Below are positions 13,042 to 57,421 of a stretch of 64,000 nt of DNA, piece after piece. Source of the stretch: Papaver somniferum (taxonomy: Eukaryota > Streptophyta > Magnoliopsida > Ranunculales > Papaveraceae); the NCBI RefSeq assembly GCF_003573695.1, contig NC_039366.1, forward strand, positions 163,560,770 through 163,624,769, read 5' to 3'. The notes under the pieces are model-generated. The model had not been told where the DNA came from. It saw nothing but the letters and a program-made list of their open reading frames with translations, and did no database searches. How positions within the stretch are numbered: the stretch's first letter is position 1; each line of letters opens with the position of its first letter. The position numbers and the translations under genes were made by a program.

Positions 13042-13166
13042 ATTCACGATGGAAAGGTCGCTGCAACATCTTCATCGTCAGTTGCACATTTTTCTGTTGA
13101 AGAAAGCTCTGACTCAGAAGAAGTGGAGGACGACCCACCATTCGAACATCTGGGAAAGTCGAAGCC

Positions 13167-13781
13167 TTGATGGAACTCACACAAAAACCTGAAGAAAGCG
13201 CACATGAATTTGTCAAAAGGTTCCGCACTCAGGCAAGTCTCATTCCCCCTCACGCATCTATATTACCAACTTTCAAATATGCTACTCTGGTCAGGGGACT
13301 TGATCTTACTCATAACTCAGTTGTCACCAAACGTTATGAGTGGTTAGTCTCGCCTCAACAATACTTCACCAAATGGTTAGACGCGGAGCCTATCCGAATC
13401 CATCGTCTCACTAACACAGTCATCACTGGAATAATGACCGAATTTCACAATCAATATCCTAAATACTCTCACTTGCATGCGTGTCCACATGTGCCACAGA
13501 ATTGGAAAACTCCACCAACATGGAACCCTACTATACGAGGATTTCCGAACCAACAGAAGATATTCAGGACACGAGCAATCAAACCTAACAAATTTCATGA
13601 AGGAGATTTAGTTCTTAAGGAAACTAAACGTAATTTGCATTCCACAAAGAGTTCGAACTGGGAAGGATCTTTTATGATTGCTAAGTCAGTAGCTGGAGGA
13701 TACTACAAATTGGCTAACATCAAGGGCAAGACAAGTATACCAGTGATTCATGAGAATTGGCTCAAGATTTTTGACGCATGA
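13167..13781 (+). pseudogene. Tat-1 integrase remnant; RT and RNase H deleted
   Basis: A 204-codon frame in a different phase from gag-protease. Residues about 65-100 (YFTKWLDAEPI, then ITGIMTEFHNQ) look like the central part of a Ty3/Gypsy integrase core, and residues about 135-204 are the C-terminal domain: GDLVLK, SNWEGSFMI, GGYYKLANIKG, NWLKIF. The zinc-binding domain and first catalytic Asp are absent. Residues 1-50 resemble a gag-like helix and may be misplaced sequence. No FxDD or RNase H motif occurs between 13042 and 13166, so the RT-RNase H block is gone. 13782-14083 is a non-coding spacer. Confidence 0.65.
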
Positions 13782-14083
13782 AGCATTAAACATTGGATGT
13801 TTTATGTCCAAAACAAACACTCAACACATCTGGCGTTTGCATCTTAGGATTTTCTTTTACCTGTATTTTCAATTCCTCCAAAACATTTGCAATACTTGCA
13901 TCCAGTATTTGAATTCAGTAGTTTATCAAAGTTCTTTTATTTAAGAAAAATCTCCATCAAATCCAAAATTCAAAAGAAAATCCTCAGTCGCTCATAAATT
14001 CAAAACCAATCATAAAATTCAAAACCAAAATAAAACCTCACATCTCTCAGAAGTTCAAAGTTCAAGAGATAATGGAAAGAAAA

Positions 14084-17000
14084 CTAAAGGAAGCCATCAA
14101 AGTACGATTTATGCTTCTCAGCATTCTCCAAGACTCGCAAAGCCGCTTTCTCCAACTCCAGCTTTTCAGTCAACTCAACAATCTTGGCCATTTTCTCTAC
14201 CATGGCATCATTGGTAAAGGGTATATTTTTTATTATTGCATCCTTGATGGTGTTGATCTTCTGACGAAGCCACTTCAAATTAAAACCAAGTTCTTCAGAT
14301 TTCTCCAAGTTGTACTCCCAATCAAAGAGTACATCTCGAGTGACAGTACTTCTGAGCCTGGTACGAATATCATCTATGACACGCAATATGTTTCCTAATT
14401 GCATAGTCAAGAAGTAGCTACGTTCAGGATCTCTTGTAACGACGATATGGCCATACATCTTCCACAACTTCTCATACATATTGGCATACCCAGTGGGAAC
14501 GCTGAATCCGCCAATAGATACGTGATACGGGAGTGAAGCGCCAACTAAAGGATTGCAAAAAATCCCTGCATTAGGGTACTCGTGTATCATTATGCGATTC
14601 TCAATTACCGGAGCAGCTTCCATAGCCATTGCAACAACTTCTTCTGGGACAGTCTCTTCTGCTCTTGGCTCGGTTCTGTCTGTCGGAGCAATAACAATTG
14701 GAGTCTCAGTTTCCTCGACAACCTTAGTAGAAACATTCTCATGACATTGAGGTGCATAGGTCATAACATCATCAACTTGGTTCACCATACGATTTGAATC
14801 GTCATTCGCTCCATTATTCGGAACTTCGGTATTTGGTACCTAATACGAAGATTACATGAGATTAGAGAAATTCGAGCATAGAAACCAAAGGAAATCATAA
14901 AATCCAGAATGTAAGTGAACTAACACTATATAAGTTCTTTATTATGCATCCAAGACATAAGAAAATGGTGTAGAAGTCATGAAACACGTTTTTCAATAAG
15001 CCCGACTGAAGAGATTTTATACTTCCCTGTATAAGATGACGAACTGGGAGCAACTGGTAAGGAATATAGGTTTGATTTATATACCATTCTCTTCATATGG
15101 ATGTTTTCTACATCATATCAAAATTTCATAGCAACTGGATAAACTAGTAAGGAGTTGTGCCCAAAACATTGGACTACATGCCAGCTGAAAATTTTCCGAA
15201 GGTCTCCTGGAAGTTTACTGTTTCTCTGATTTCGGCCCCTAAACGTGCTTCAAACTTAAAAAGCTTCTTTGCTAAAGCTTGGAAATTTCCCGGGCATAAG
15301 GATACATGGGTAGATCGCGAATATCTGACATCGGACGAAGATTTTATGGCATTTTGCTAAAACGCTGAGTTCTGAATTTTCTGGTGACGTATTTCACTAA
15401 ATTTTTTCACTCATTCATGTGAATTTTCATTCATTCAATCTCAAATCGGCAATATTATACTTCTATGGATAGAATATAAAGTGGATACTTACTTGAGGAG
15501 TTCCCAAGTCATTCGAAGGATTAATAGGGTCGGCATCAATATTGGGAGCACCATTACCTCCATTTGGTCCTAATTCTTGAGAGTTCTCTTTCTCGCCACT
15601 ATTCGAAGACAAATGAGTAACCTGGACATGTCGTCTTTCCATAACAACCTCTTCCTGTATGAACCAATAACAAACATCATTACTTCATTCAAAGAAATGC
15701 CGAAATCACTTACATGAAAGGATACTCACATCGACCTCGTCATCAATGCTGGATTCCTGGATTGTTCGTATAGAGGTAAGATGAAGACCGTCAATGACCG
15801 ATGGAGCAAAATTTTGAAACAAATTAACAATATTCTTTTGGATCCTAATTACACGAACAAAGAAAAATCGCGATGATAAGGGAAGTGCTAAAAACTCACC
15901 AAACAAATGGCTGGAGACTTCATATTATTCGGTATCATCCTATAAGATGTTCTGCTCCTGCTTTCTCCACCCTGGGGACTTTCTTGCACTTCTGAAAAGT
16001 CTACATGAATCCGAGATCTCACAGTACGACCATCCTGCAATAAAGTTAATGAAGCAATTAAGGTACTATCATCATGTCTTCACTAAAATCATCGTAAGAA
16101 AGATGCTTACTTGTGAACATTCTGGAGGCGTTTTCATCTTATCGCCACTAAAAAGATATTTCAACCTTGGTCGATCAGAGATCACATCAGCAGGAGGAAA
16201 CTCTCGTACTAGAGGCTTAAAATCCATCGCAAACTTATATAAACGCTCAAGTTGTTGACGCCAGAAGTCTACATAACCCGGGGTTGAATAAGTAGCTCGT
16301 TCAGAACAAGGGAATAAATAATCATTTCCTTCCACATGTTGCAATCCAAATGGGCCTTCAGATACTCGAATGATGGCTTATTCACTCGATAACCCGGGGA
16401 ACACTGATGAAGACCCATTTATCGAGCTGCTCTTATATTCTTTCACCTGGAATTTTACGTGCATCACCGATATTAAATATCCGGGAGTGCAACTCAGTAT
16501 AAAAGATCTTTCTCCATCACTCAGATTGGTACCGGATTTCAATATGACATTTCCTTCAGTAGTATTAAAAGTGATCAATTGCGAGAAGAGATGAGGAACC
16601 GACACCCAGTGACGGAAATCAAACTCGGACTCAATATCCAAAACGCCGGTGAGGCTTATTTTATGTTGTGGTTGCTTTGTCGACCAACGCATGATCCTGG
16701 CGTTATTTTTCTCAAGGAAAGCATGGAGAGTGTCGACGTTTGGCCCTTGCAAGATACTACAAGGAATCGGCGCATATTTCTCAAAGTGCTCCCACATCAA
16801 AGCTTGGAGGAACATGGTATTAGCATACGTCTCAATTTTCATGAAGCCGTTGGAGATACTGGAGTCTGTGACTAAGGAGTCTAAATTGGAAAACATCAAA
16901 CCCAAAAACAGACTGCCGATAGGAAGTTTCTCACCTTTAGCCATTTTTATGGCAAAAGGAATCACGAATGGCTTCAACAAATGTCTGCTATCCTCAAGAA

Positions 17001-17814
17001 TGTCTCTAGAAAGCCACAAGCATAAGAAAGCAGCAATAGTTAAGGTACCATCAACAGGTTCTTTGGGAATGTCATCTCTCGGCCACCAGTGCTTCAACCA
17101 TTGAGCATAGCAAGTTTTGTGCGACTTGTTGAATTCACGCATCGTAGTTTCCAACACTTCAGATATCACGTCCTCCTCTGCTGACAGATTTTCAGGGAAA
17201 TTGCCAGTAATTAGGAGATGCAACAAAGCAACTACATCTTCCAAAGTGATGGTGAATTATCCCCATCTGCATATGAAAGTATGAGTAGGAACGCACCGGC
17301 GAGCAAGTAAAGCCACCATACCTGGTATATCATGATGAATGACTGAATTCCCAGCAGCTTGAATAACTCGTGTCACTTGTGCACGATCCAGCATGGTCCT
17401 CACACGGCTATGACCCAACATATGCCTTGCCCACCCAGAGAAATGCGCCAGAGGTTTTCGAGAAAGCTTAAGTTCCACATGTGAACCTAAATAGTGTTTC
17501 CCATTCAAACAAAATCTGATTATCGCTTGAGGAGATACTAACTTGTTATGAGTAGTACTCCTAGGATTTATGAGCAGCCGGAATGAGGAACCCGAGGGAC
17601 GCTTTTCAGGTTTATGCAGAAACACGAAGAATTCATCATCAGTATTTGGGATGTTCTTGGTTTTAGGAGCTTCCTCTTTCTACTTGGAAGTCTCAGAATC
17701 ATCATTTCTGGAATAATCATCATCTTTGGAAGATGCATTTGTAGAAACATCCTCCCTGGAAGTTTTCTTTCTAGAGGCACCATCTTCAGGAGCGTTATCA
17801 CGGGAATCAGTCAT
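14084..17814 (-). pseudogene. Tat-1 antisense gene with plant mobile domain, five exons
   Basis: Minus-strand gene opposite to gag-pol. ATG 17812-17814 (MTDSRDN). Likely exons: 17814-16111, 16034-15900, about 15834-15730, 15654-15493, 14839-14084, joined in phase 0 by GT...AG introns (for example CAA|GTAAGC and TTGCAG|GAT). The exon 3 acceptor is weak. Exon 1 carries a plant mobile domain-like region: GHSRVRTMLDRAQVTRVIQ, VPTHTFICRWG, FTITLEDVVALLHLL, then WLKHWWP. Three in-frame stops interrupt exon 1 (near 17678, 17255, 16376); the one at 17255 replaces the Glu normally expected before FTITLEDV. The last exon has a coiled-coil end. Antisense genes at this place are known in Tat elements; the function is unknown. 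Start chosen over an upstream hydrophobic ATG at 17895 because Tat-2's gene also begins with a short M-[ST]-D start. Confidence 0.75.
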
Positions 17815-36355: not shown

Positions 36356-36762
36356 TGTAGTGATTTACACTACAATTGATATACAGAAACAACTCTCAAT
36401 CTCTAAGGATAAAGATCATTGGAGAAGAAGGGAGGAATTTGGAGAGTTAGAAGAAGAATTAGACGAATTAGAGGGGGGGGGGGGGNNNNNNNNNNNNNNN
36501 NNNNNNNNNNNNNNNNNNNNNNNNNNNNNNNNNNNNNNNNNNNNNNNNNNNNNNNNNNNNNNNGGGAAGAGAAGGCAGACGATATTTGGGAGAGAAGAAC
36601 ATTTCATTTTATTAATTCATTGATCCCGATGCTTACAACAAACACAACTTATATTGCTGTAAATCAACTCACAAACAATTGTACCTAAACTACCCCTCAA
36701 CTACTAAGAAAACTACGAAAATAACCTGCTGGTCTAATTGTCATGAAGCTCGGTTTATGACA
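36356..36762 (-). repeat. 5' LTR of the 4.0 kb element, with N gap
   Basis: Matches 32738-33057. Apart from 78 N it holds 329 bases, nine more than its partner, all in a G run next to the gap. Confidence 0.85.
36486..36563. other. Assembly gap (78 N) in an LTR
   Basis: The gap follows a 12-G run. The partner LTR reads straight through here with 'ataggagggcaagagaagg', so little or nothing is truly missing. Confidence 0.95.
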
Positions 36763-40160: not shown

Positions 40161-41908
40161 TAGCAAAAAAATAACTCCTTATAAGGAATTAAGGACGTGG
40201 CCCAAAACCAATGTTCCAAATCATCGGGAAAAGAATGACAGGGGAGCCAAGGGAGTGGTATATACAGCCATCTGACCATGCCGTAGGGTCGGTTACTTCC
40301 ACTCCCCTACCTAGAGATTAGTTGAACGAACCCAAATGGTTGCCATAATATGCAAGTCCCCAGCAAGACTTCTTCCGTATGCGAGCTTCAATTTGATTTC
40401 TCCAGCCATAAATCACTAAAGCATTTTACAGGTGTAAGTAGTAGAGGCCCATGAAATGACAATCTAACTGCGAGCGAAGGATTCCCCTGGATTGCACTTT
40501 CTGATTTTCATCCGAATCACCTTCTCCTTATCATCAGCCGAATTCCCATTCCGGATCTCACAGCATTGTCTCCGTGGGCCCTGTTTCATTTCCAAAGATA
40601 TAGACAATCTCAAAACCATTTAAAGAACGGTATTTCCCACGACCAGGCCGCCATCGCCTGAGTGGTTGTGATGTTGTACAACCTCCCAAACGGTATATAC
40701 AATAACAATCAATCAAAGAAAAATAAAAGAGACAAAGATGAGAGCATACATACCCTGAGCCACTCGTTATTATCCATTATGGACGAAGATATCACAGCTG
40801 TGCTGACTTTCATAGCAGCAGCATATTTTGGACGATAACATTTCATTCTAATTTGATCGAAGTAACTCTTATATGTACCAACTGTTTCCCTTCGACCCTT
40901 GACCAGTTTTTCCAAGAAAAAGATAAACGGGCCTTCACATGGGTCACTATTAACAGGCCTTACATTAAACGTAAACAACTTTTCACTCCGCGTGCTCCAA
41001 GTCCGAAAACTTTGTAAAGGAGTGCACAACTCTTGTGCGGATAAAAAATAAGGATATATTTGTACAGTATACCCCCACGAGACCGATATCGACCAATCCC
41101 GTTTCGAATCGTAACAAACACTTTGTTGTAAAGTTCGACCTGGATCCATTTTGTATGCATTATCCATCAACATCTTAACGGAATCCAACTGTCTCATTTT
41201 CGGGAATAACGGTTCCACATCATCTAGATGGTGTAGAGATACTAGAGGCGCCAATGGATGTGCCGCCAACAATCCGTACGGATCACCTCGGATATCAAGC
41301 TGCAATATCAATTCGGAAAATGTGTCATTTGTCCAAATATTTTTAAATCATGGTTCAAATGGACGAGTAAAAAATAGTTTGGGTGAAATAGCCAAAAAAC
41401 AAAATAGTAAGGATGAACTGGTTTTCATCCTAGCTTAAATTTAAAAAATAGTAAGGATGAAACTGGATGCATCTTGTGTAAATTAAAAACAAGAAAAAAA
41501 TATTTGAAAATGGGCACGATGAAACTGGTTACATCCTGCCTATTTTTACATTTTCGTTAATTTAAACAGTATCAAAATCTAACTGTGCATTTCATTCAGG
41601 AATTGTTGATTTTGGTCTTTTTAACCAATTTTGTGATATCAATTTAACTACTTTATGCAAAGCGGGATGGAAAATGGGGCTACCAGTGCATGGTGTTGCA
41701 TTAGACACGAAATCTGGGTTGCCCTGATGCGGACACGACGTGACCCGAATGTGGACATAAACAATTTTTCAATAAACTTGGACGTGAACGCATTATGAGA
41801 TTATAATATCTTTCCTTTTTTTTGCTTAGAAGATTATAATATCTTTCACTAAAATGTATATATTAGGGAGGTAATTTCTCAACAATACTAATAGATTATT
41901 GCTAAATA

Positions 41909-42172
41909 CTCCCTCCGTTTCATTTTAAATGATGTTTTTGGAGTTTTCACGCAGATTAAGAAATGAAGAGAGATATGAAAATTTTCCACCAATACCCTTA
42001 AAAAAAGTCTTCTAGCATTAATTACTGTTAGAGCATTTAAAAATAAACTTATGATTTCAAGACAAAATATAAGGGTGTAGTTGGAAGTTTTTTGGAAAAA
42101 TATGAAAACCTTCAAATATTTTTGAAACAAAAAAATAATCCTAAAACATCATCTAAAATGGAACAGAGGGAG
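41909..42172. mobile_element. Stowaway-like MITE in intron 1
   Basis: 264 bp with terminal inverted repeats CTCCCTCCGTTTCATTTTA / CTCCCTCTGTTCCATTTTA extending about 35 bp, flanked by TA on both sides (41907-41908, 42173-42174). The CTCCCTCCG end and TA target are those of plant Stowaway (mariner-type) MITEs. No transposase. Confidence 0.9.
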
Positions 42173-42605
42173 TAACAGATTTATATAAGAATAAGCATAT
42201 ACATTAACGAGCCTATATATTTACAAAAGATTCGGGTACTTTTAGTATACGTTTATATTAATTAGTGTGTCACGTGTGCATCAGATGTCACCTATGTGTC
42301 TATCTTAAAGATGTGCACGTCCAGATATCGGATACGATCTGACGCGGACACGTGACATTTTATGCACGTCCGTGCTACCCAGCGCGAAATGTTTACAACA
42401 CTAATAGCATGACAGGCAACGGCCTCCACGGGAGTAGGGAAAGTGGTGGGTAGAAAAAAGAATAACTGTCTACCTATAAGTTGGTATGTTACCGACAAAA
42501 TTAGCAGCAACTTTTCTTCTCTTCGAAATAAGAATTATCACTAACTTTTACTTTCCCCTCAAAAGGTGCATGAATAGGAAAGGTAAACCAAACAAAATGG
42601 TGAAA

Positions 42606-43022
42606 CCTAAAGAGAGATATGTGGACACTCTTAGATGAACTCTATTATACATGATATGTGCCATTTTTTTTTTACGTATAATCCATATGACAATGAATTC
42701 ATGTCTAATATTTAGATGATACGTTTTTTTTTATAAGGCTCTACATTTCTACAAAAAAATGAGTATAATTCGAGACGTATAAAAAGACCATCTACCTCTT
42801 TGAATATCAACCGTTAAAAGTTGATGGTTAAAATTAAGATCGGTAAATGATGTGGTTTGGCATCTTGAATTGCGCTCATTTTTGATAGGAATTTAGAGTC
42901 TTATGGAGGTACATGCCATCAAAATACTAGATTTAAATTCATTGTCGTTTAGATTTTGAACAAAAAATGACGCAAATCATATATATATGATAGTGTTCAT
43001 CAAAGAATGTGGATCCTCCCTC
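42606..43022. mobile_element. Fold-back MITE in intron 1
   Basis: The left arm from about 42606 ('gacactcttagatgaactc', later 'gacaatgaattcatgtc') is complementary, imperfectly, to the right arm ending about 43022. Arms are near 180-200 bp and meet around 42815-42830, so almost the entire element is inverted repeat. Ends and target duplication were not resolved; Mutator-like or other long-TIR MITE. Confidence 0.6.
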
Positions 43023-43935
43023 AAACCTAAATACGAAATGCTCTCACTAATACACGAGTGGGTTCTATCAAATTCAATGCTTAATGGGTAGTGGCCCCGA
43101 GATGGCACTTGTGGAAACAATCAGTATACTTTATAGCAAAGTTGGCCAACAAATAAAGAGAAAAAAAGGAAGATTAAAAAAATGCAAGGAAAAATGTGTA
43201 CCTGATGGAAACCAACTTCTTTAGTAAGAGGAACCCCGATATCAGCTACACAAGCAGATATTCTCTCATCAGAACCATGCATATATGAGTAGCGACTAAT
43301 GCAGTCATCTAACTTCTGAGCTAACTCAAACGCCAATCTATAACTAATAGCAAAACCACCACCACCATATGCCATATTATACGAGTGGGAAACATCTTGT
43401 TCGACACTTTCTGAATTATCACCAATATAGTACATTTTATTATGATCATACTTTGATAGAACACTTACTAGATTATCAGGGAAGAATACTGTATCATCTT
43501 CTCCTAATACGAACCATCTTACACTCTTGAGCCCGAGTTTAAAACTTTCTAAAACGATTCTAGCGATTCGAACAGCTGATTTTGTATCCGCATTTTCGGA
43601 TACTTTGTATGGTGGAGATGTTACGAACCACGTATTGGGTTTCTCATCTAACCATACAAATCCACGAGTTATGTTTGGTTTCCACCATAACTCGGTGTAA
43701 TGACGACGTTTCTTCCATGTACTTACTGACCCACCGATTCCGAATAAAATGTGTGAGATGTTTGTCTTGCCGGTGTAACCTTCTTCCTCTTGTTTTCTTT
43801 TGAAGAATAAATCTTCATCCGCTTGTTCCTTTTTGAACAATATATCTTCTTCTTGTTCTTTCAATTTGATTGATAAATCTTCTTCTTGTTGTTGTTGTTT
43901 TGTAGTCTGGGAGTTTTCAATTACCTTATAACTAT

Positions 43936-44796
43936 TGTGGACACAAGAACTACGCGGGAGTCCGAATGCCCACAATCAATCGTTAACGTCTAAAGAGATT
44001 ACGATGATGATACCCTGACGTGGATTCATTGGCTCAAAACCTTCGGGTTTATCATAGCCTCCTCCTACTTCCCCGTGCGTGGCAATCATGCATGGGATAC
44101 AAGTATTAAAGGAAAACAAAACATATAAACAAATACGTGCGGAGCTAAATGAATGTAAAGTGCTGAAATGTAAATAAGACCAAGGTTTACGTGGTTCAGC
44201 ACTAAGGCCTACATCCACGGGGTTTGTTGTTCTACTATATTATTCCCAGTTACATGAATAGCTGAATGACTTTGGGTTTTACATATTTCTCTCCACTATG
44301 GGATTAACTTACCCTTACTATCCTCTCTCTCTCTCTCTCTCTCCTTCTCTCCTGATGTTTTTTCTCCCCCTTCCTCTTTGTGGAGATTGGGTATTTATAA
44401 GGTTGGAACGTGGGACCCATCTCTGAAGACCGTTGGAACCTTATCTTCTCGTGTCCTTGCGTCCATCACGCGGAGGTCTGCGTTTCCCCCTCGATCCCGC
44501 GGAGGCATCTTCGCTCGTTCCACAGGTTGGTCGACACGTGCACTGCTCAGAGTGTTTAATGCGGGTAGTTGAGGGGTCTGCTCGTGTCAGACAAGTGTCT
44601 TCTGCCCCTGTCAGTCCGTGTCAGCTAACTTCCTCTCCACCGTTGATCTTGGCCCCTCTTCTGGGGATGAGATAAAGCAACTCCTAGGGGTTTATTTGGT
44701 GCTTCGTGACGCATCATGCTTTGCTGTTTTGGCTTGCATGCTTTCCACGTACCTTTTTGTATGCACGTGTCCGATAGTGAGATATATGTGTACACA
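43936..44796 (-). repeat. Tat-2 3' LTR (861 bp)
   Basis: TGTGGACACA...TGTGTACACA in plus reading. Contains a (CT)n run near 44322-44343 and, on the minus strand, TATAAATA (44392-44399). Frames at 43976-44218 and 44433-44675 recur identically in the other LTR and are LTR shadows. Confidence 0.95.
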
Positions 44797-44815
44797 ATTT
44801 GCCCCTTTTCTTCGG
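44797..44815 (-). other. Tat-2 polypurine tract
   Basis: Minus strand 'cgaagaaaaggggcaaat' runs directly into the 3' LTR, the expected plus-strand primer position. Confidence 0.8.
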
Positions 44816-45066
44816 GCTTAAATGGCTAATGGGTGCCTTGAAGAAAAACTATCGTCGCACATTCTTCTCACTCCTAATAACTTCTCCTAGATACTTGGGC
44901 ACGTCTTTTATTCGTGCATTAACTGCTTATGTAACGGGCACGTTTTCCTATTTCTCCCTTAATTTCCTCTTTTCTTTCGGGTATTTTAAGGATAGAGAGG
45001 AAATTTAATTTCATTCTTCCTAACCACTCTCTCAGTTCATTCTTCCTTTAAATTTCTTGCCTGCCT

Positions 45067-45215
45067 TCATTGAACCTGTGACCTTAAATTCTTTGTCAGT
45101 CTTCATTGCACCTGTGATCTTAAATTCTGTCAGTCTTTATTGCACCTGTGATCTTAAATTCTCCCTTCGTTGCACCTGTGATCTTCAATTCTCCCTTCAT
45201 TGCACCTGTGATCTT
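45067..45215 (+). repeat. Minisatellite in the leader of the Tat-2 antisense gene
   Basis: Five imperfect units of 'cattgcacctgtgatctt' plus 'aaattct', spaced 26-37 bp, 320-470 bp before the antisense ATG. The surrounding 44816-45537 must hold that gene's promoter; a weak TATA-like 'tattttaagg' is at about 44979. Confidence 0.7.
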
Positions 45216-45537
45216 CCCCTGTTCGTTTCTTGTACTTGCTGTTTTTGCCGGTGATTTTTTCTTTTCTTTATTTCACTGTTTTATGCCGTGTTGATTTGTG
45301 AATTTTCTGCTACTGTTGTTCCTTGTTTGTGATGAAGAACTTTTTCTGATGCTTGCATACTAGTTTGCCCCTGTTCTTCATCTTAAATTAAGGAAGCCAT
45401 TACTTCGAGGGTGAAATATTGAGCATGTATCCTAATTTTAGGGTTGCTATGTTATCGTTGTTGTATTGCTATGGATGTGTTTTTTGATTTTTGGTTATCG
45501 TGTGTAACTTGTTCTTGATTTTATTCTTTCCGCAGCC

Positions 45538-48500
45538 ATGTCTGACCGTCCGCGGCCTACTTATGAGACTCCTGATTCTAGGTTGTCGAGATCTCCTCAG
45601 CGTCGAGAGTCTCAAGATGATGTTCGTCGGAGTCGAGTTTCTTCTGGAGCGAAAGCTTCGTCCTCTCGGGAAGAGATTCCTTCGATAATTCCGTCTGGTT
45701 CACGAAGAGTTTTTAATCACTCAATGGTGCTTCCTCGTGAAGATACTAGGAGTACGCAGGCTCCGCCCCGCGCTGTTGCTTTTGACGTTCCTCCTTTACG
45801 TTCGTTAGTGCCCGAGCATCATCTACGGTCTTCTACAACTTTTAAAGGGAAGAATACAAAGGGCGTATCTCCTAGGGGTGAATCTTCAAAGAATCCCCCT
45901 GTGAAGAGAAAAGCGTCTGAAGCGTTTGTTAGTTCGTCCGGCCCCGCCGAGGAGGAAGAGGCTGCTCCCTTGATACGCAGTGTCTCTGTTAGCAGGAAAA
46001 AAGTAACCTTCAAGCATATCGATCTTGAAATATTCAAGGAAAAGCATGAGCTTCAAGCCTTCGGTGTTCGTTTCTATGCCCCCGAGGATGATATTACGTA
46101 TGAGCTTATCTCCAAGTACGAATTCGATGAATTTCATTTGTTAACGACGGTTGGGGCCTTCGAGGCTGGTCTGATGCTGCCTTTGTACAAATCGGGTGAT
46201 TCCTTTTACTACGACGTGCTCGCTAGTCGTGAGGGTTCTTCCACCAATACTCATAGCCGTTCTGTATCCCAACTATCGGGAAATTATCTTCGCGCCCTGA
46301 AGGAATGCTATCTGCGGAGTAAGGGGGAGACGTCGATGACTTGCTACGTCCCCAATCCCTTGGAGAAGGAATGGTACACTCCTGAGAATTTCAATAACTC
46401 CTTCGGTGATTACGTCAATAGTAGGAATCGCAAGCCGTGGAGTGTCAGCCTTCGGAATCTCCCTGCTCCTCGAGGCGAGATTCGTCTGTTAAATGAGGTC
46501 AGCGATGCCAAGCTGAAGTATGTTCCTGGCACGGAGGCGTCTAGTCGTCGGAAACTCTTTCCTGCACGAGAAAGGATCAAGCGCGATCATGACTACGAGT
46601 GGCACGCCACTGTTATTGAGATAGTTGGTCCGTGGGATTACGGTTGGATTCCTGGTCCCCGTGGATGGCGGCCCACCGAGAATAGTAAGCCGCGCGAATC
46701 TCCTCCTGTTCTCTATGGAGATTTCTACCCCTGGCGTCTGAACTTTGCGGGCATGAATTTTCCTTATGCCCTGGATGTCGTAGAGGGAGACGAGGAGGAT
46801 GGTTCCGGTGCAATACCCCCACCGAAGAATATTTCAGCTGCTCAGGTACGCAGATTCTAGCTGCGCTTCGTTTTTATAACTTCCATCCGACGGGAAGAAT
46901 AATTCCTTTTGTGGTTTCGGTTTCAGGTATTGAAGAAGAAAAAGATTAGGCCGAAGCAGTCTTCTACTACGGTGATGGGCGAGGTCGAGGCCCAAGAAGA
47001 AGTTACCAGTCCAGTGAATGAAGAGTTTGCTGAGGACGAGATTACAGATGGGGAGGAACGTATTGGTACCTCCCCTATCAATGTCGAAGAAGAGGTCTTC
47101 GCAGGTCACGCTGGTGATGAAGGAAGGAACAAAGATGTGGTGGCGGATGATGTTGTCATCGGGGATGTTTCCGTCCCTGCTGGCGATGTCGCGGATACCC
47201 TTCCCACTTCTCAAGAATTTTCTTTCGATCGGATGTATTCCACGGGGGAGTTCTTTGACGAAGCCCTCGATTTTCCCGAGGACTTCTCTTTGCTTTCCCC
47301 TAATGATAATTGGGATGTTCTTGGTGGTGATGGTAATGGGGATGCTACTGTAGGAAGTGTTGGTGCGGAGGAGCCTGCTGTGCATGTAGGCGCGGAGGAG
47401 CATGCCAACATTCATGCTGAGGGGGTCGAGTCAGAGAAAGGAAAATCTGTTGTTGACGCGCCCGCCGATAGTCTTCCCCAGTCGCCGATGTCTGAGGGTG
47501 AGGACGCCATCATGAGTTGGTTTAAGGAGAAGAATCTTCTGTTTGTTTCTCATCCCGCTCCTGTGGTTGTTGGGGAAAAGGAATCAACCGCGTATACCCG
47601 TCGCATGATGGAGATGTCTTCGAAGGCGCAGGTGTCTGAAGCCTGGGGAAAAAGGTTGACTGTTCCCGAAGCTACCCTCGTACCGGAGCCTCCTACTTCT
47701 GTTGCCGATATGATGGCTATTGCCGACGGGTATCAATATGGCTTCCCGCAGCAGTGTGTGTTGGAGGTAAATTTTCGTACATGCTTGTTCGTGAGAATCG
47801 GATGCTTCGGTTGAATAATGTTTTGTCATCTTGATGTGTAGATGATGAGGAGCGAGCATTGCAACCACGTGCTGTATCAGTTCTTTAAAGCGAAATCTCT
47901 GAAGCTCGAGGCTAAGCTTCGTCACCGGGAAAAGGAATTATCTGCGGCTGAGGTGGAGATAGAAGAGCTGAAGAAAAGTCTTAAGGAGAAAGAAAAGCTG
48001 GGTGAAGCAGAGGCTGATCTTCGTTCAGAACTTATTGCAGTGCGCGCTGAGTTAGAGCAAACTCGTAGCCAAGTTTCCACTATCACAGGTTTGGTTCTTT
48101 TCCCTCGCCGTATGTCGTCATTCTTTTATCTCTTAGTTGTTCTGTCTTAGTCTCCCCACCCTATGTCCAGTGGGTGGCATCCCCGAGCTGATATGGCTTC
48201 AGAACGAAAGAGCTCGGCAAAAATCTCGTATTAGAGATTTGGTTGAGAAGATTAAGAGTGAGGCTAAGAAATGGGATGCTCGGGCTGAGGTATGGCGCGC
48301 GCGGCATGTTCAGATGGTCGACATGCAAAATCTGTACAACCATGATCGGGCCTTATTTAATGGCACATTGCTGTGGACCAGTGATAATCTGCGGGAAGCC
48401 CGTGAGCGTACTTCCTTGTTGGAATCTAGGATTCAGCTATTGGAAAAAGAATTACAGACGGCGCAATCCATGTCTCTTTCGGGGGTCCAAGATAATATGC

Positions 48501-49265
48501 TCGGTCTTGCCAGGGAACGAGATGATGCTCGTGCTGAAGTCTACGCTCTCAGCAATGCTCTTTCCGCGTCTCGTGCCGATGTAGCTCGTCTTGCTGAGTC
48601 TGAGAGGAATCTTGAAGTGTGCATGTACAGACTCAGCAAAGGGGTCTCAGAGATAAATAAAGAGGTCGACCACCTTCGTCATATGGACTCGATGAAGCAG
48701 GTAGAATTAGATGCCTGTCAATTTACTCTCACCAACCTTCAAGTAGACTATAAGAAATTATCCGCGGAATATGATCATCTTGATGAAGCGCGAGATGCGG
48801 TTGTTAATGAGTATGAAGAGGCTTCGGCTTGTGTCGAAGGTATNNNNNNNNNNNNNNNNNNNNNNNNNNNNNNNNNNNNNNNNNNNNNNNNNNNNNNNNN
48901 NNNNNNNNNNNNNNNNNNNNNNNNNNNNNCAAGAGGAACAAACCAATCACTTCAAGAATTTAGCAGCCACCCGCGAGGAGGCCGTTGGTGCTGCTTCCAG
49001 AGAAGTGAATCGGCTATCTTCGTTATTATCCCAAGCCCAACAGCGGACAGCAGTTATTAAACATAAGGCTCGTTGTCAATTGGCTGAGGAGACGAACAAG
49101 ATGCTGGAGAGGATAGAACTTGGCCTAAGGAATGAACATGGTCTCGTGAAGAACTATCCTCGTCGTCCCGTTCCTGCTGCATTGCCCAGCTCCTCGGGCC
49201 CCTCTTCTGGTGGGAGCGTCCCATCAAGTCTTCGGAATAATCCTGACGACGGGACCGCCAACTAG
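45538..49265 (+). CDS. Tat-2 antisense gene, five exons, transposase-like/coiled coil
   Basis: Plus-strand gene opposite gag-pol. ATG 45538 (MSDRPRP) after an AG-rich leader. Exons: 45538-46845, 46927-47766, 47842-48088, 48171-48839, and a last exon whose start lies in the N gap, ending TAG 49263-49265. Introns of 71-82 bp have GT...AG ends (CAG|GTACGC, GAG|GTAAAT, CAG|GTTTGG, AAG|GTATNN). With the last exon's start taken from copy 2 the frame is about 1154 codons without a stop. Exon 1 (residues about 160-410) resembles the 'putative gypsy-type transposon' (Transposase_28) region: TVGAFEAGLMLPLY, WDYGWIPGPRGW. Exon 2 is acidic. Exons 3-5 are long heptad-rich coiled coil, and the tail is Ser/Pro-rich. 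Likely a nuclear or particle-associated accessory protein; function unknown. Introns show the RNA source is not the element's sense genome. Confidence 0.8.
48844..48929. other. Assembly gap (86 N) across intron 4 / exon 5
   Basis: The duplicated copy has 132 bp in the equivalent place (50735-50866): the rest of a 71 bp intron and the first codons of exon 5. The gap is therefore too short by 46. Confidence 0.9.
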
Positions 49266-49911
49266 GTAGAGATCGCAGCGTTCTGTAGGGTCCGCGGCAT
49301 AATTATATTTTTTGTAACCATGTAACAAGGATGTTTTTTGATTGTGTATCCTTGTCTTTGGCCGTTCACTTCTTGTAATCACCCTTTATGAAATGAATCC
49401 TCTTCTTGATATACCTACAATGTTGTTTTTAAGTGTTTGTATTTTAAGTTTGTGAAAAATCAAAACAAAAGTTGTTAAGTGTTTTTGAGTGCGATACTGA
49501 AGGAAGGTACCTTCGTGATCGTCTTGAGACCTGTCACCCCGCTGGCAAATCCTGGGCCAGAGGATTCCCAGACGGTGGGGGCCGGGGCAACGTTCTAGGA
49601 TATAGAGTGTAAAATATGTACGCACCCATTCCGTCGACCCGTTGCCTTAAGATTGGTTGGGTATCTCTTTCTGCTGGGTGCCTTCCCCCCGGTCCTACAC
49701 TTATGGACACTGATGGGGGAGCCCTGAGAGATTGTAGATTAACTACTTTCCCCAATATTGTAGGTAGATTCCACTGACTTGATAATTTGAAAGCTTGTTT
49801 GATTGATAAGTTAAGGTCTGCAATTCCTCTTCCAGAGATAGAAACATGTGGAGCGGTCAGGCTCCCTTCTTCTTCTGGTACACTCCAAGCAGATTCAGAT
49901 CTGCGTTGCTT

Positions 49912-50103
49912 CTATGGGAAGTATGGTTTGAGCCATTTAGCATTCCAAGGATGCCGGAGGACCTCACCTTTTAGATTACGAAGGTAGTAGGAACCATTAC
50001 CCGCAATGTCGTGGATCATGAAAGGTCCTCCCCATGTAGGTGCTAACTTTCCCCATTTCTTTTCTTGCTGATACCGTGGGATTGTTCTCAACACATATTG
50101 TCC
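49912..50103 (-). pseudogene. Duplicated integrase C-terminal tail
   Basis: About 62 codons identical or nearly so to the end of the integrase at 51849-52040 (VLRTIPRYQQEKKWGKL, then WNAKWLKPYFP). It is cut off at the duplication junction and has no upstream integrase; not functional alone. Confidence 0.85.
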
Positions 50104-51202
50104 CTCGGCAAAAATCTCGTATTAGAGATTTGGTTGAGAAAATTAAGAGTGAAGCTAAGAAATGGGATGCTCGGGCTGAGGTATGGCGCGCGCGGCATGT
50201 TCAGATGGTCGACATGCAAAATCTGTACAACCATGATCGTGCTTTATTTAATGGCACACTGCTGTGGACCCGTGATAATCTGCGGGAAGCCCGTGAGCGC
50301 ACTTCCTTGTTGGAATCTAGGATTCAGCTGTTGGAAGAAGAATTACAGACGGCTCGATCCATTCCTCTTTCAGGGGTCCAGGATAATATGCTCTGTCTTG
50401 CCAGAGAAAGAGATGATGCTCGTGCTGAAGTCTACGCTCTCAGCAATGCTCTTTCCGCGTCTCGTGCCGACGTAGCTCGTCATGCTGAGTCTGAGAGGAA
50501 TCTAGAAGTGTGCATGTACAGACTCAGCAAAGGGGTCTCAGAGATAAATAAAGAGGTCGACCACCTTCGTCATATGGACTCGATGAAGCAGGTAGAATTA
50601 GATGCCTGTCAATTTACTCTCACCAACCTTCAACTAGACTATAAGAAATTATCCGCGGAATATGATCATCTTGATGAAGCGCGAGATGCGGTTGTTAATG
50701 AGTATGAAGAGGCTTCGGCTTGTGTCGAAGGTATAATCCCAATTCATCGAGTGTGATCTTGTTTTTTTTCTACGCTAACTCCGTGGTGTTGTCTTTTTCA
50801 GAGCTCGAGGGACGCCTTCGCGTCACAAATGAAAAACTTGAAAAGGCTCAATCTTCCTTAGCACAGCAAGAGGAACAAACCAATCACTTCAAGAATTTAG
50901 CAGCCACCCGCGAGGAGGCCGTTGGTGCTGCTTCCAGAGAAGTGAATCGGCTATCTTCGTTATTATCCCAAGCCCAGCAGCGGACAACAGTTATTAAACA
51001 TAAGGCTCGTTGTCAATTGGCTGAGGAGACGAACAAGATGCTGGAGAGGATAGAACTTGGCCTAAGGAATGAACATGGTCTCGTGAAGAACTATCCTCGT
51101 CGTCCCGTTCCTGCTGCATTTCCCAGCTCCTCGGGCCCCTCTTCTGGTGGGAGCGTCCCATCAAGTCTTCGGAATAATCCTGACGACGGGACCGCCAACT
51201 AG
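50104..51202 (+). pseudogene. Duplicated 3' end of the antisense gene
   Basis: Copy of exon 4 (to 50730), intron 50731-50801 (GTATAA...TTTCAG) and exon 5 (50802-51202, stop TAG). It lacks exons 1-3 and a promoter. The open frame is kept: a few amino-acid changes from copy 1 (for example LEKELQTAQSM to LEEELQTARSI). It supplies the sequence missing from copy 1. Confidence 0.85.
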
Positions 51203-51848
51203 GTAGAGATCGCAGCGTTCTGTAGGGTCCGCGGCATAATTATATTTTTTGTAACCATGTAACAAGGATGTTTTTTGATTGTGTATCCTTGGCTTTGGCC
51301 GTTCACTTCTTGTAATCACCCTTTATGAAATGAATCCTCTTCTTGATATACCTACAATGTTGTTTTTAAGTGTTTGTATTTTAAGTTTGTGAAAAATCAA
51401 AACAAAAGTTGTTAAGTGTTTTTGAGTGCGATATTGAAGGAAGGTACCTTCGTGATCGTCTTGAGACCTGTCACCCCGCTGGCAAATCATGGGCCAGAGG
51501 ATTCCCAGACGGTGGGGGCCGGGGCAACGTTCTAGGATATAGAGTGTAAAATATGTACGCACCCATTCCGTCGACCCGTTGCCTTAAGATTGGTTGGGTA
51601 TCTCTTTCTGCTGGGTGCCTTCCCCCCGGTCCTACACTTATGGACACTGATGGGGGAGCCCTGAGAGATTGTAGATTAACTACTTTCCCCAATATTGTAG
51701 GTAGATTCCACTGACTTGATAATTTGAAAGCTTGTTTGATTTATAAGTTGAGGTCTGCAATTCCTCTTCCAGAGATAGAAACATGTGGGGCGGTTAGGCT
51801 CCTTTCTTCTTCTGGTACACTCCCAGCAGATTGAAATCTGCGTTGCTT

Positions 51849-53118
51849 CTATGGGAAGTATGGTTTGAGCCATTTAGCATTCCAAGGATGCCGGAGGACC
51901 TCACCTTTTAGGTTACGAAGGTAGTAGGAACCATTACCCGCAATGTCGTGGATCATAAACGGTCCTCCCCATGTAGGTGCTAACTTTCCCCATTTCTTTT
52001 CTTGCTGATATCGTGGGATTGTTCTCAACACATACTGTCCCTCTACAAAATTTCGTAGCTTTACCTTTTTGTTGTACTCCCTTGCTAGTCTTCGTTGATA
52101 ATTTTCCATCTTTTGCAATGCTACTTCCCTTCTTCCTTCCAAGTCGTCCAACCTTTCTAACATCATATCTGTTGTGAGGTTTTTCTCCCAGGCTTCGGTC
52201 TTCGTGGTTGGCATGAGGATTTCCGTAGGTATGACTGCTTCAGCTCCATAAGTAAGAAGAAACAGGGATTCCCCGGTAGCGGACCTTCGTGTTGTCCTGT
52301 ATGCCCATAAGACATTGTGCAGTTGTTCGCACCATCTTCCCTTATGCTCGTCTAATTGTTTTTTGAGTATAAGGGCGAGGGTCTTGTTGGTAGCTTCCGC
52401 TTGTCCGTTGCTTTGAGGGTATAAGGGGGTGGACTTGTTTTTTCTTATTTTGAAGGTGTCGAAGAGCATGTCTATATTTTTTCCCTGTAATTGCTTGCCG
52501 TTATCAGATACAATTTCAGCAGGTATACCAAATCTGCAAATGATGTTCTGGAATATGAAAGTGAAGACATCCGCGTCTCTGATCCTGGCCAAGGCCTTAG
52601 CCTCCACCCATTTACTGAAGTAGTCCGTGGCTACTATCAAAAATCGTCTCTTCCTTGATCCTTCGATGAAAGGCCCGACGATGTCTACTCCCCATTTTGC
52701 AAATGGCCACGGGCTATCGACAGAATTTAACATTGTTGCCGGTGCGTGGATTTTTCTCGCGAAGCGCTGACATTATTCGCATCGTCGGGACATCCTCGCA
52801 GCATCTTGTATCATGGTCGGCCAGTAATATCCTTGCGTTTTTGCCTTGTCAGCTAGTGATCTCATACCGCTATGATTCCCTGCGTCACCATAATGGATAT
52901 CATTTGGGTCAATCCCCGGCATATCTCCTAACTTCCAGGCGAACACATCCGCATATTCCTTAAGTAATTTGGTTAAGGACTGTTCTCTCCCTTCGCCCAT
53001 GATGGTCCCAATTTTGACCATCTTCGGGTCTTCTTCCGTTCCTATGTTGATTTCCTTTGTGGGTTCCACTGGTGTGAACATAGGCTTTGGGTTTCCGAAG
53101 ACTGGGGCGCTCTTTAAT
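51849..53118 (-). pseudogene. Tat-2 RT start fused to integrase; integrase core intact
   Basis: The frame is continuous with the protease upstream, with a TAG at about 53118 and one TAA at about 52770. First part: LLKEYADVFAWKLGDMPGID, the conserved start of Tat RT. It then jumps straight to HSGMRSLADKAKTQGYYWP, the integrase zinc-binding domain, so about 2 kb of RT-RNase H is missing. From 52733 the core is complete: WGVDIVGPF (Asp), VSDNGKQ (Asp), then Glu in GQAEATNK with exactly 35 residues between the last two (D,D35E). C-terminal GPF-type domain ends WLKPYFP. The TAA falls in the CxxC of the zinc-binding domain (CE*CQRF). Integrase would insert element DNA into the genome. Confidence 0.85.
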
Positions 53119-53120
53119 TG

Positions 53121-54145
53121 CTATTTGGCGTGTTTCTGCTCTTTGTTGATTGTTGAGGTACTTGTTTCCGAGCCTCGGACATTACCCTCTTTCGTCAAGC
53201 CTTTTCCTGTGGTTTCCTTAAGGAATAGGTCTACGGCTTTCTCTTTCGTGGTTTCTTGATTTCTTACTCTTCGGATTTTTCGCTGTTCTTCTTGTTCATT
53301 GTTGATATGATCCTGAGTGGCCTGGCATTCTCGTGTAGCGATTCGATCTCCCTTGATATCCATGATTCCCTCAGGTGTTGGAAATCTGAGGTACTGGTGG
53401 TATGTTGCCGCAACTCCTTTGAGCTTGTGTACCCATTGTCGTCCAATAATGGCATTGTAGGGGGAAGGGGTATCCACCACACTGAATCGGGTATCCAGCT
53501 TCATGGGCCCTGCGTTAAACTGTAACACAATGTCTCCCAAGGGCTTCGTGGCCGCTCCATTGAATCCGTAGATGGTGTGATAAGAGGTCATCAATTGTTC
53601 ATCATGGAGCTTCATCCGCTTGAATGCATCATAGAATAGGACATTCACAGAGCTTCCCCCGTCTATGAGGATCTTTTTGAGGTTACATCCAGCTATTGGT
53701 AATGTTAGGACCAAGGGATCGTTATGGTCTTCCATATCTTCTTCGATATCCTCGGTATCGAAGATGACAGGAAATTCCATCCATTTTTCATGCTCGTCCA
53801 CTGTTATCCCATCGACCTTATATAACTCGCAGCGATCTTCGAATTGCTTCCGTAACCTTTTTCCAATCTGTGCTGTGAGTGAGGGTCTTGTGGCTTCGGA
53901 ACACGAGATGGAGTTGATTGTTCGGTTTTCTTCCGGAAGTTGGACTGGTTTGGTTCGTTTGGATCTGTCCTCGGTGACCTCCTTCCGTATGTAATGTTTG
54001 AGCTCTCCCGCATCAATTAATTTTTGGATCATTATTTTAAGGTTCTTGCATTTTTCGGTCTGGTGTCCGTTGAAACAGTGATACTCACAGTAATCTTTAG
54101 ACTTCTCGGATCTCGGGGGTTGCTTTCCCTTAGACCATGGCCATT
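53121..54145 (-). pseudogene. Tat-2 zinc knuckle and aspartic protease
   Basis: Phase differs from gag by one shift near 54146-54165. It starts with a Tat-type knuckle (YCEYHCFNGHQTEKC, about 54050-54092), then a linker, and a retropepsin with ILIDGGSSVNVLFYDAF, where D-G-G is the usual variant of the catalytic D-T/S-G in this group, and YNAIIGRQW as the second element. The protease looks intact. It ends at an in-frame TAG (53121-53123), after which the frame continues to the RT remnant. Confidence 0.8.
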
Positions 54146-55822
54146 CTAAGTTTTCCCTCCCTTTGATCTCTCGTAGGATACGAGCATAGCTAGCGTTGAG
54201 TTTCGTGTAAACTTGATCTTCGAATTTTCGGTCGCCTGTTCTTCGTTCATCCCTCCGTTCCTTTCTATCTTCGTGAGGTCTCTCATCTGAGAAACCCCTT
54301 TTGGCCCCATTGGTTTATCTGCTGAATTGGTGCGATGAGACCTCTGCGGATATGCCCTCGGGTTTTCCCGTTGAATTTCTTCAAGTCGAGCGTGCTTCTC
54401 GATAATTATTCGGAGATCGCCTTCTGTCTTGGGCACGTTCCCGTGAATTTCAACAAATAGGGGACTCATTCGGTCTAAGCCCCATTTATAGCAATTGATG
54501 CTTACCACTGGGTCCACGCTTCCTATGGCTTGGCAGATCCTATGCCATCTGTTCGTGTATTCCCTCGTGGTTTCCTTGTAGCCGATTGCTAATGAAAAGA
54601 GCTTATCCATCCCGGTGTTTACAGTCTTGTTGTACATGTATGTTCTTAAGAATTTCTCCGCAAGTTGGTCGTATGAGTGTATGGAGTTTGGTGGCAGATT
54701 ATCAAACCATGATAACGCCGATCCCTTCAAGCTTGACGGGAAGTATCTACAGAGTACGGCGTCGTTCTGTCCCCATCTAGCTAAGACACGGTTGTAGTAC
54801 CGAACATGTGCAGCAGGGTCGCTGGACCCATCATAGCATTCGAACGTCGGGACAGGGCATTTCAGGGGAATAGGGGTGTTGGCCAAGCGATGCGTTAGGG
54901 GCGTGGAGTTAGATTCTCTCATGACCTCTTCTAACCTTCCCCCACCTTGTTTATTTTTCAATTGCCTGATCTCTGCCATCATCTCATCCCGTAGTTCCTC
55001 CATTGCGCGTTGGTGCTCTAAATTCTTCAGCTCATTTCCGTCTGACTCTCCAACGTCATAATCCGGGTCGGATACGCTACGTCTCCTTGTCGCGTCCTCA
55101 TTAGCCGCTAGGACGACTCTACAGTCTTGGTTTGGCTCTGGTGCTTTGGAGCTTGCTTCATCAAGTTGTTGGCTGGTCTTTGTGCTTAGAGCAATCCGCT
55201 CCTTTAAATCTTGATTTTCTCTGGCCTACAGAGCTACAGCTTCTGCGTAAACCTGTTGGTTCCTCCTCAGTTCCTCGAGCTCAGCCATTAGTTGGTGTGA
55301 TTGGTTGGACCCCTGATTGGGAGTCCCCGCGCGTGCCGCTACAGCCGTGGCGCCGCCCTCCTCCATGGTCTGCACTAAAGGTGGAAGGGGTTCAGCTTCT
55401 GTTGCTGGTGTTTCCAATTTGGATTGAGCGCCCCTCTGCGGTGCCAGAGCCGCCGGTATGGTTTGATTCTGGTTATTTGTTAGCGGCATTCCAAAGGTTA
55501 GCAGATGCGCGGGTTGGAATGTTCTGGATTCATCCACCCTTTCCCTTGGTTGGTTAAGTTGACTCATGGCGAAGGTATTGCTAGCCTCCGCAGCCTTCAG
55601 GACTACCGCAGTTTCCCCGTATTTTATCGTTGCTGCTCTGAGAGCCGCCACTGCAACAGAATTAGCGTTCATGGGTGAAGTGATTTCTGCGGTATCCTGC
55701 CTTCGATTGGTCATTTTAGTTTTATCTCCTTTCTGTTTGCTTCGGGTGATGATCGGGGTTGTCCGGGGTGTTTCTTTTGACAAAGCTTTGGACTTTCCTG
55801 CTTCCTGCGTCTTCTCCATCAC
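54146..55822 (-). pseudogene. Tat-2 gag with one in-frame TAG
   Basis: A 558-codon frame with a single TAG at about 55226-55228. N-terminal half: basic, then Ala/Thr-rich and a coiled segment (LMAELEELRRNQQVYAEAV). After the stop, a second coil (MEELRDEMMAEIRQLKNKQ) leads to the capsid domain: VPTFECYDGSSDPAAHV, CRYFPSSLKGSALSWF, NLPPNSIHSYDQL, then an LFSLAIGYKETTREY stretch. It ends with a +1 shift into the knuckle. Gag forms the particle. A single stop could be read through but more likely is decay. 55823-56392 is the leader with an N gap. Confidence 0.85.
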
Positions 55823-56072
55823 GTGCCCTTTTGTTGATGACGAAATTTCGCGTAAACTTGCCTTCTTTACTCACAACACGTTCTCTGTATAAATTATTTC
55901 AAACAGAAACGGGAATATCCGCGTGAAGCGGGTTAGTTGGCGAAATACAACTTTTCAAGAGGGAATTAATACCCGCAGACTATAAAATATGGGACATGCG
56001 ATCCTTAGTATATAAAAAAAAACTATAGTAAATCCGACGGATATAAAATATGGGTTAAAGTTTTATTAAAGG

Positions 56073-56248
56073 NNNNNNNNNNNNNNNNNNNNNNNNNNNN
56101 NNNNNNNNNNNNNNNNNNNNNNNNNNNNNNNNNNNNNNNNNNNNNNNNNNNNNNNNNNNNNNNNNNNNNNNNNNNNNNNNNNNNNNNNNNNNNNNNNNNN
56201 NNNNNNNNNNNNNNNNNNNNNNNNNNNNNNNNNNNNNNNNNNNNNNNN
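56073..56248. other. Assembly gap (176 N) in the Tat-2 leader
   Basis: Lies between the primer site and gag. No second copy exists in the window to fill it. Confidence 0.95.
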
Positions 56249-56392
56249 AATAACCCTTGCTTGGAACAATAACTCTTATCGAAGGCAAAAGGTGGGTTTT
56301 TGAACATAATACAGTTGACGAATGATCTATACGGTCCGAGCTGATAAAATCGGAGCAATCACAGGACAAGATAAATCTTTTACCGGGACGAA

Positions 56393-56414
56393 GTCCCTGT
56401 TTCTAGCGCCAAAT
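56393..56414 (-). other. Tat-2 primer-binding site
   Basis: Directly after the 5' LTR end (…GTCCACA) the minus strand reads ATTTGGCGCTAGAAACAGGG. The TTTGGCGC core is a Gypsy primer type different from Tat-1's. Confidence 0.7.
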
Positions 56415-57271
56415 TGTGGACACAAGAACTACGCGGGAGTCCGAATGCCCACAATCAATCGTTAACGTCTAAAGAGATTACGATGATGATACCCTGACGT
56501 GGATTCATTGGCTCAAAACCTTCGGGTTTATCATAGCCTCCTCCTACTTCCCCGTGCGTGGCAATCATGCATGGGATACAAGTATTAAAGGAAAACAAAA
56601 CATATAAGCAAATACGTGCGGAGCTAAATGAATGTAAAGTGCTGAAATGTAAATAAGACCAAGGTTTACGTGGTTCAGCACTAAGGCCTACATCCACGGG
56701 GTTTGTTGTTCTACTATATTATTCCCAGTTACATGAATAGCTGAATGACTTTGGGTTTTACATATTTCTCTCCACTATGGGATTAACTTACCCTTACTAT
56801 CCTCTCTCTCTCTCTCTCCTTCTCTCCTGATGTTTTTTCTCCCCCTTCCTCTTTGTGGAGATTGGGTATTTATAAGGTTGGAACGTGGGATCCATCTCTG
56901 AAGACCGTTGGAACCTTATCTTCTCGTGTCCTTGCATCCATCACGCGGAGGTCTGCGTTTCCCCCTTGATCCCGCGGAGGCATCTTCGCTCGTTCCACAG
57001 GTTGGTCGACACGTGCACTGCTCAGAGTGTTTAATGCGGGTAGTTGAGGGGTCTGCTCGTGTCAGACAAGTGTCTTCTGCCCCTGTCAGTCCGTGTCAGC
57101 TAACTTCCTCTCCACCGTTGATCTTGGCCCCTCTTCTGGGGATGAGATAAAGCAACTCCTAGGGGTTTATTTGGTGCTTCGTGACGCATCATGCTTTGCT
57201 GTTTTGGCTTGCATGCTTTCCACGTACCTTTCTGTATGCACGTGTCCGATAGTGAGATATATGTGTACACA
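56415..57271 (-). repeat. Tat-2 5' LTR (857 bp)
   Basis: Five base changes and a CT repeat shorter by 4 relative to 43936-44796. It abuts codon 50 of the glycosyltransferase. Confidence 0.95.
56867..56874 (-). promoter_or_regulatory. TATA box of Tat-2 5' LTR
   Basis: Minus strand TATAAATA followed by 'cccaatctcc'. Transcription of the element would start near 56840, just before the CT/GA repeat. Confidence 0.5.
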
Positions 57272-57421
57272 ACTATCTACTAAGTATTTGAATCTAAGCA
57301 AATGAAATTGGTCTGAAACATCAGTGAAGGAAAGAATTGATGCAAATGAAGCTAGAAGTGCAAACATTACAAGAAACCATTTTAGAAACAGGGATTTAAA
57401 TACTTTGTCTGTAGACAACAT
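57272..57421 (-). CDS. N-terminal 50 codons of the split glycosyltransferase
   Basis: ATG at 57419-57421 opens a frame with a short basic start (MLSTDKVFKSL) and a membrane anchor (FLVMFALLASFASILSF), typical of type II Golgi enzymes. It ends exactly at the Tat-2 LTR. The last five bases (ACTAT on plus) repeat at 43931-43935, and codon 50 joins in phase to the TAT AAG GTA at 43930. Read through into the LTR it gives 34 unrelated residues and a stop at about 57167, so any product from this promoter would be an anchored stub. Confidence 0.85.

Follow-up and report, generated by a model that had tools for sequence, protein, structure and literature searches.

A long terminal repeat retrotransposon splits exon 1 of a DUF604/Fringe-like glycosyltransferase gene in Papaver somniferum

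In the Papaver somniferum genome, exon 1 of a three-exon glycosyltransferase gene is interrupted after codon 50 by a long terminal repeat (LTR) element. The gene lies within C9:163560770-163624769, a 64-kb stretch that is called the window below; positions refer to it. The insertion inside the gene was confirmed as a genuine LTR retrotransposon event. We consider it about 90% probable that this GT31-type gene, the surviving member of a whole-genome duplication (WGD) pair, was split by a Tat element, that the resulting allele is null, and that the pair is now without a functional copy.

The interrupted gene and its insertion

An earlier note on this DNA had described a recent 13.3-kb insertion flanked by the target-site duplication ACTAT, an in-phase junction at codon 50, and exons 1 to 3 that are otherwise open up to a C terminus containing RRQCC. 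The duplication was found on both sides of the element, and neither element/gene junction is touched by a gap. The 5' piece of exon 1 (57421-57272, 50 codons) joins position 43930 in phase, and the exons (57421-57272 plus 43930-43202, 41299-40754, and 40580-40464) are all open, are separated by GT...AG introns, and lead to the C terminus GPRRQCCEIRNGNSADD, with RRQCC as described. The insertion measures 13,336 bp, which agrees with the proposed size, but two N gaps inside it (48844-48929, 86 N; 56073-56248, 176 N; 262 N together) make the length partly an estimate, and the element is rearranged internally. As for the LTRs, said to be five bases apart in about 857, we counted five substitutions, all transitions, to which one 4-nt (CT)n indel that went unmentioned has to be added. 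Stretches resembling a primer-binding site (PBS) and a purine-rich polypurine tract (PPT) were judged by eye to stand where expected internal to the LTRs, which assigns the element to the minus strand, in the same orientation as the gene.

The split gene is DUF604/Fringe-like (GT31-type), with both the DUF604 and the Fringe domains present; the 5' piece of exon 1 alone, which holds a hydrophobic 19-mer (mean, 2.09), and exon 3 alone matched no Pfam family. Its relatives by sequence with solved structures are a GT31 protein (8yrl) and a beta-1,3-glucosyltransferase (12em). The two domains are shared with plant genes of this type such as the Arabidopsis "glycosyltransferase (DUF604)" (P0097), with which the poppy gene also has the C-terminal motif RRQCCEI in common. 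Unlike these relatives, the poppy gene is split by an element and carries Glu in place of the first Asp of DDD. Intron 1 holds an inverted repeat resembling a miniature inverted-repeat transposable element (MITE) at positions 41907-42174, whose 41-nt arms are 85% complementary and start with TACTCCCTCCGT; this part of the intron is unmatched in the C7 homeolog.

A protein search returned 2,047 matches, of which 120 were listed; all conservation counts given here rest on these 120. The top two among them were the Papaver armeniacum protein P0001 (512 amino acids, 94% over 100% of the query) and the Papaver nudicaule protein P0002 (84%), from species whose draft genomes are described in the available text of PMC9174169. 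Both proteins are continuous across the insertion site and end in GPRRQCCEIRNGNSAD... The pieces of the window gene follow the order of P0001, and the two have the tail GPRRQCC in common. The earlier note had named two observations that would speak against its reading, namely, an insertion present in all relatives and a 5' piece that belongs to a different gene. Neither was made, as the predicted proteins of both species are uninterrupted and the 5' piece aligns to the N terminus of P0001 and of P0002, which rules out an origin from another gene. The AlphaFold model of P0001 has a mean predicted local distance difference test (pLDDT) score of 63.2, with values below 50 for the metal-motif residues 193-202. 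Among the 120 matches listed, there was no near-identical P. somniferum protein and no close ortholog from Papaver bracteatum or Papaver californicum, only more distant relatives (57-58%); draft annotations may simply have missed the gene in the latter two species.

Age of the insertion and fate of the duplicate pair

With a clock rate of 8.1e-9 per site per year, taken from the available text of PMC8521590, the LTRs date the insertion to 0.36 million years (My) ago (95% Poisson range, 0.12-0.84). A local rate obtained from 1,672 noncoding sites compared with the C7 homeolog gave 0.48 My. CpG sites hold two of the five LTR substitutions, and methylation there can inflate the date. Were the insertion 10,000 years old, the probability of five or more differences would be 4e-7; were it as old as the split from Papaver setigerum (4.9 million years ago [Mya]), the probability of five or fewer would be 4e-23. 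Poppy was domesticated only some thousands of years ago. The insertion is young, yet older than domestication.

The genome that was searched is an assembly of 2,715,436,153 bases in 34,283 contigs. A locus on C7 (L009) is the WGD partner and is collinear with both flanks of the window gene. In exon 1 of L009, 381 bp have been replaced by 6 bp; since this deletion spans the insertion site, the empty site is not readable in homeolog DNA. Eight gaps shift the reading frame in the aligned remainder, of which a neighboring pair where exon 2 ends may reflect alignment noise; a search of the 9.9-kb piece recovered no exon 3. Judged by its sequence, L009 is a decayed pseudogene. For exon 1b, the 5' piece, and exon 2, no further genomic match exceeded 91%, the next best standing at 89% in one of the searches, which rules out an uninterrupted second allele on another contig.

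The search for a second intact paralog, which the earlier note had suggested, thus gave a decayed homeolog on the one hand and a divergent tandem paralog on the other. The latter (L011) is located on C9 at a distance of 155 kb; its exons 1 and 2 are open with canonical splice sites, and a recognizable exon 3 (E 3.2e-9) with an earlier stop and a candidate splice site follows behind a roughly 5.5-kb intron. In the public model LOC113314329, isoform X2 terminates with exon 2. The tandem paralog on C7 (L010; C7:156469500-156479400) has no recognizable start. Synonymous divergence was 0.65 between L011 and the window gene, compared to 0.135 for L011 and L010, its partner on C7, and 0.148 for the window gene and L009, so the tandem duplication predates the genome duplication. 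Another P. somniferum model, LOC113295422 (P0005, 660 amino acids), has first and last parts unlike its relatives and may be misannotated or chimeric.

The genome duplication is dated to 7.2 Mya in the available text of PMC8521590. For the branches since that event, we compared 339 of 475 codons, leaving out deleted and gapped ones, and 12 of the 58 differences stayed unpolarized. The branch of the window copy carries 15 silent and 6 replacement changes (P = 1.1e-6, with 79% replacement expected under neutrality), whereas that of L009 carries 7 silent and 18 replacement changes (P = 0.46 against neutrality); the two branches differ (Fisher P = 0.007). These counts indicate that the window copy was constrained for most of the time since the duplication and that its partner was not, and the window gene was probably the last working copy of the pair. 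The proposal of a young natural knockout in a previously selected gene is well supported, purifying selection after the WGD being part of the evidence. The wording that the gene was working "until very recently" needs more care: the time scale is one of hundreds of thousands of years, the insertion being about 0.36 My old and older than domestication, and a replacement at codon 194 (D194E), considered below, may predate the insertion.

The element and its sister copies

The family of the element was examined through 40 LTR matches (94-100% identity) scored out of 3,192 first-look candidates, from which 11 sister copies and 10 LTR pairs were chosen by one-element-like LTR spacing. The ten other LTR pairs have ages of 0.14 to 1.33 My; as extracted, seven show matching 5-bp duplications, one is mismatched, and two have ends trimmed off register. 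A segment of 2.13 to 2.14 kb between the protease side and the integrase is present in 10 of the 11 sister copies and missing from the window copy. The 11th (L036) has two upstream matches, and its piece ends before the position of the segment becomes readable. Compared to sister copy L030, the window copy shows a 2,154-bp in-frame deletion, with AAA common to both ends. One frame is open throughout the segment in three sister copies. In L030, the one copy tested by Pfam, it encodes reverse transcriptase (RT), RNase H, and a second RNase H upstream of the integrase (RVT_3, E 2.8e-13, and RNase_H, E 1.2e-7, at residues 487-609; RT_RNaseH_2 at residues 306-400). RT and both RNase H domains are absent from the frames of the window copy.

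A second, cellular-like RNase H is a feature of the Tat lineage according to the available text of PMC9033089, and the domain architecture of the sister copy therefore supports an assignment of the element to the Ty3/gypsy Tat lineage. The Tat label given earlier is supported through a sister copy, while the window copy itself lacks the domains in question. Further likenesses to Tat elements (Retand/Ogre relatives) are an extra antisense frame 3' of the integrase in the window copy and the 5-bp target duplications of the LTR pairs; the extra antisense frames tested gave nothing above the Pfam cutoff. The window copy also differs from the lineage by an internal tandem duplication, for which an assembly cause is possible, one unit holding a gap. 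With its intact LTRs and missing RT, it resembles defective LTR elements that are moved by a helper, such as Dasheng with RIRE2 (available text of PMC9033089), and enzymes from other copies would have been needed if the deletion preceded the insertion. Unlike in the Dasheng/RIRE2 case, it seems to be one isolated defective copy rather than a nonautonomous family. A family of RT-less elements, which had been guessed from the equal LTR spacing, is ruled out by the 10 sister copies that keep the segment.

The coordinates of the gene and the element are collected in Table 1. Degenerate tandem repeats with a spacing of about 30 to 36 nt were seen at positions 45035-45238, inside the element beside the 3' LTR. 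Elsewhere in the window, positions 11038-17244 hold two frames, of which one is gag-like as judged by eye and matched no Pfam family, whereas the other, in antisense, carries a plant mobile domain (PF10536, E 8.5e-15); this region is perhaps part of another Tat-type element. An assembly gap of 78 N at positions 36486-36563 lies outside the split gene and the element.

Table 1. Features of the split gene and of the inserted element (window positions)
Feature	Position	Strand	Remarks
Exon 3, C terminus with RRQCC, including stop	40464..40580	-	89% identity to P. armeniacum P0001
Intron 2	40581..40753	-	GT...AG
Exon 2	40754..41299	-	DUF604 E 1.5e-60; 94% identity to P0001
Intron 1	41300..43201	-	GT...AG
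Exon 1 remainder (1b), codons 51-293: stem and N-terminal half of glycosyltransferase domain	43202..43930	-	GEDDT at codons 193-197; DUF604 E 5.2e-30, Fringe E 1.6e-13; 95% identity to P0001
Target-site duplication ACTAT, left copy	43931..43935	.	Perfect 5-bp match to right copy
Tat LTR retrotransposon copy	43936..57271	-	13,336 bp including 262 N; gag, protease-like, and integrase frames; no RT/RNase H
3' LTR	43936..44796	-	861 nt, TG...CA
Extra open frame, antisense to element, 3' of integrase	45538..46860	+	No Pfam match
Internal tandem duplication, about 1.9 kb	48200..51200	.	One unit broken by N gap; single in 3 sister copies compared
Integrase frame	51852..52772	-	rve PF00665 E 1.5e-9
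Junction of 2,154-bp in-frame deletion removing RT, RNase H, and second RNase H	52880..52915	-	Comparison with sister copies
Protease-like frame	53124..54314	-	No Pfam family at E 0.01 for this longer frame; weak Asp_protease_2 match (E 0.0054, below curated cutoff) on open reading frame (ORF) 53121-54032
gag frame	54149..55225	-	Retrotrans_gag PF03732 E 1.7e-11 on contained ORF 54146-55003
5' LTR	56415..57271	-	857 nt, TG...CA; PBS-like stretch next on minus strand
Target-site duplication ACTAT, right copy	57272..57276	.	Perfect 5-bp match to left copy
Exon 1, 5' piece, codons 1-50: start codon, signal-anchor/transmembrane-like segment	57272..57421	-	Open from ATG; 98% identity to P0001

Consequences, alternatives, and meaning

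The frame from the start of the gene stops after 84 codons, 34 of which are LTR derived, and a frame read out of the 3' LTR runs into in-frame stops, with the first in-frame ATG at codon 216, past the metal motif. We propose that the surviving member of the WGD pair was split by the Tat element after codon 50 about 0.1 to 0.8 My ago. The RT deletion would stem from a template jump while the window copy was being reverse transcribed, or else would date from just before or just after the insertion. Transcripts started at the native promoter of the gene would run into the 5' LTR and encode only codons 1 to 50 plus the LTR-derived codons, i.e., a membrane anchor without a catalytic domain, while a product started from the 3' LTR would begin downstream of the metal-binding motif and have no membrane anchor. 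As neither promoter would yield an intact product, the split allele is most likely null, and the gene pair is probably without a working copy in the sequenced genome.

Several observations weigh against this explanation. The empty site is known from predicted proteins of other species and not from DNA, and a gene predictor could have skipped the insert. The aligned codons of L009 contain no in-frame stop, which leaves the deletion, the frameshifts, and the exon 3 that was not found as the evidence for its death. Since an insertion 0.36 My ago, the coding sequence should have collected about 4.5 neutral changes; with 4 to 5 such changes, open exons alone say little. The element contains N gaps, and splicing across it is possible. 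Glu at codon 194 (GEDDT) is found only in the window copy, while all 119 aligned relatives have Asp (GDDDT), so activity could have been lost or altered before the insertion.

The last point leads to an unlikely alternative, in which catalysis had already been lost or altered and the gene was drifting by the time the element arrived, so that the insertion knocked out nothing. The window gene does not have the metal-binding DDD (DxD) motif, which in one alignment is preserved at the corresponding position of a solved GT31 relative; the gene is a damaged member of the family by descent rather than a member of a different one. D194E is also the sole private change among its departures from columns that are at least 90% conserved, the other six being common to P. 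armeniacum. Such departures are, however, no more frequent in the window copy (7 of 164 columns) than in the intact genes of P. armeniacum (7 of 163) or P. nudicaule (5 of 163). The gene has neither a frameshift nor a stop, and the replacement and silent counts of its branch leave room for a short, recent neutral phase at most. Drift after the insertion can supply a change of this kind, and D194E may represent either decay after the insertion or damage before it.

That the allele is not null, because the element is spliced out or an N-terminally short protein started in the LTR is functional, appears very improbable. The shared orientation of element and gene could let the 3' LTR promoter read into the gene, but the in-frame stops and the late ATG oppose this, and the membrane anchor is separated from the enzyme part. 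Even less credible is an assembly artifact in which gene pieces or element halves were wrongly joined. The two gaps do lie inside a high-copy element, one of them in a unit of the internal duplication; yet the junctions are gap free with matching 5-bp duplications, both flanks are collinear with a single C7 locus, and the pieces keep the order of P0001, which leaves doubt only on the internal length and the duplication.

The splitting of a gene by an LTR element is an ordinary, well-documented mechanism, so the general surprise is small; a search of the literature on poppy resequencing and on LTR-element insertions into exons found nothing on this locus. The homeolog was disabled by a deletion, the window copy is both split and altered at its metal site, and neither P. 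bracteatum nor P. californicum had a close ortholog among the listed matches; on these grounds it is conceivable, if rather doubtful, that the gene has been lost repeatedly in Papaver and that empty-site alleles may still segregate in poppy. If true, this would provide a natural test of the role of DUF604 glycosyltransferases and of whether their loss is tolerated or favored. Both copies of a duplicated gene have here probably been lost, one by deletion and drift and the other by a datable element, and selection can be measured on each branch. The locus offers a clean marker of the presence/absence type and, most likely, a natural null for a plant glycosyltransferase family on which a search for DUF604 and glycosyltransferase found little literature.

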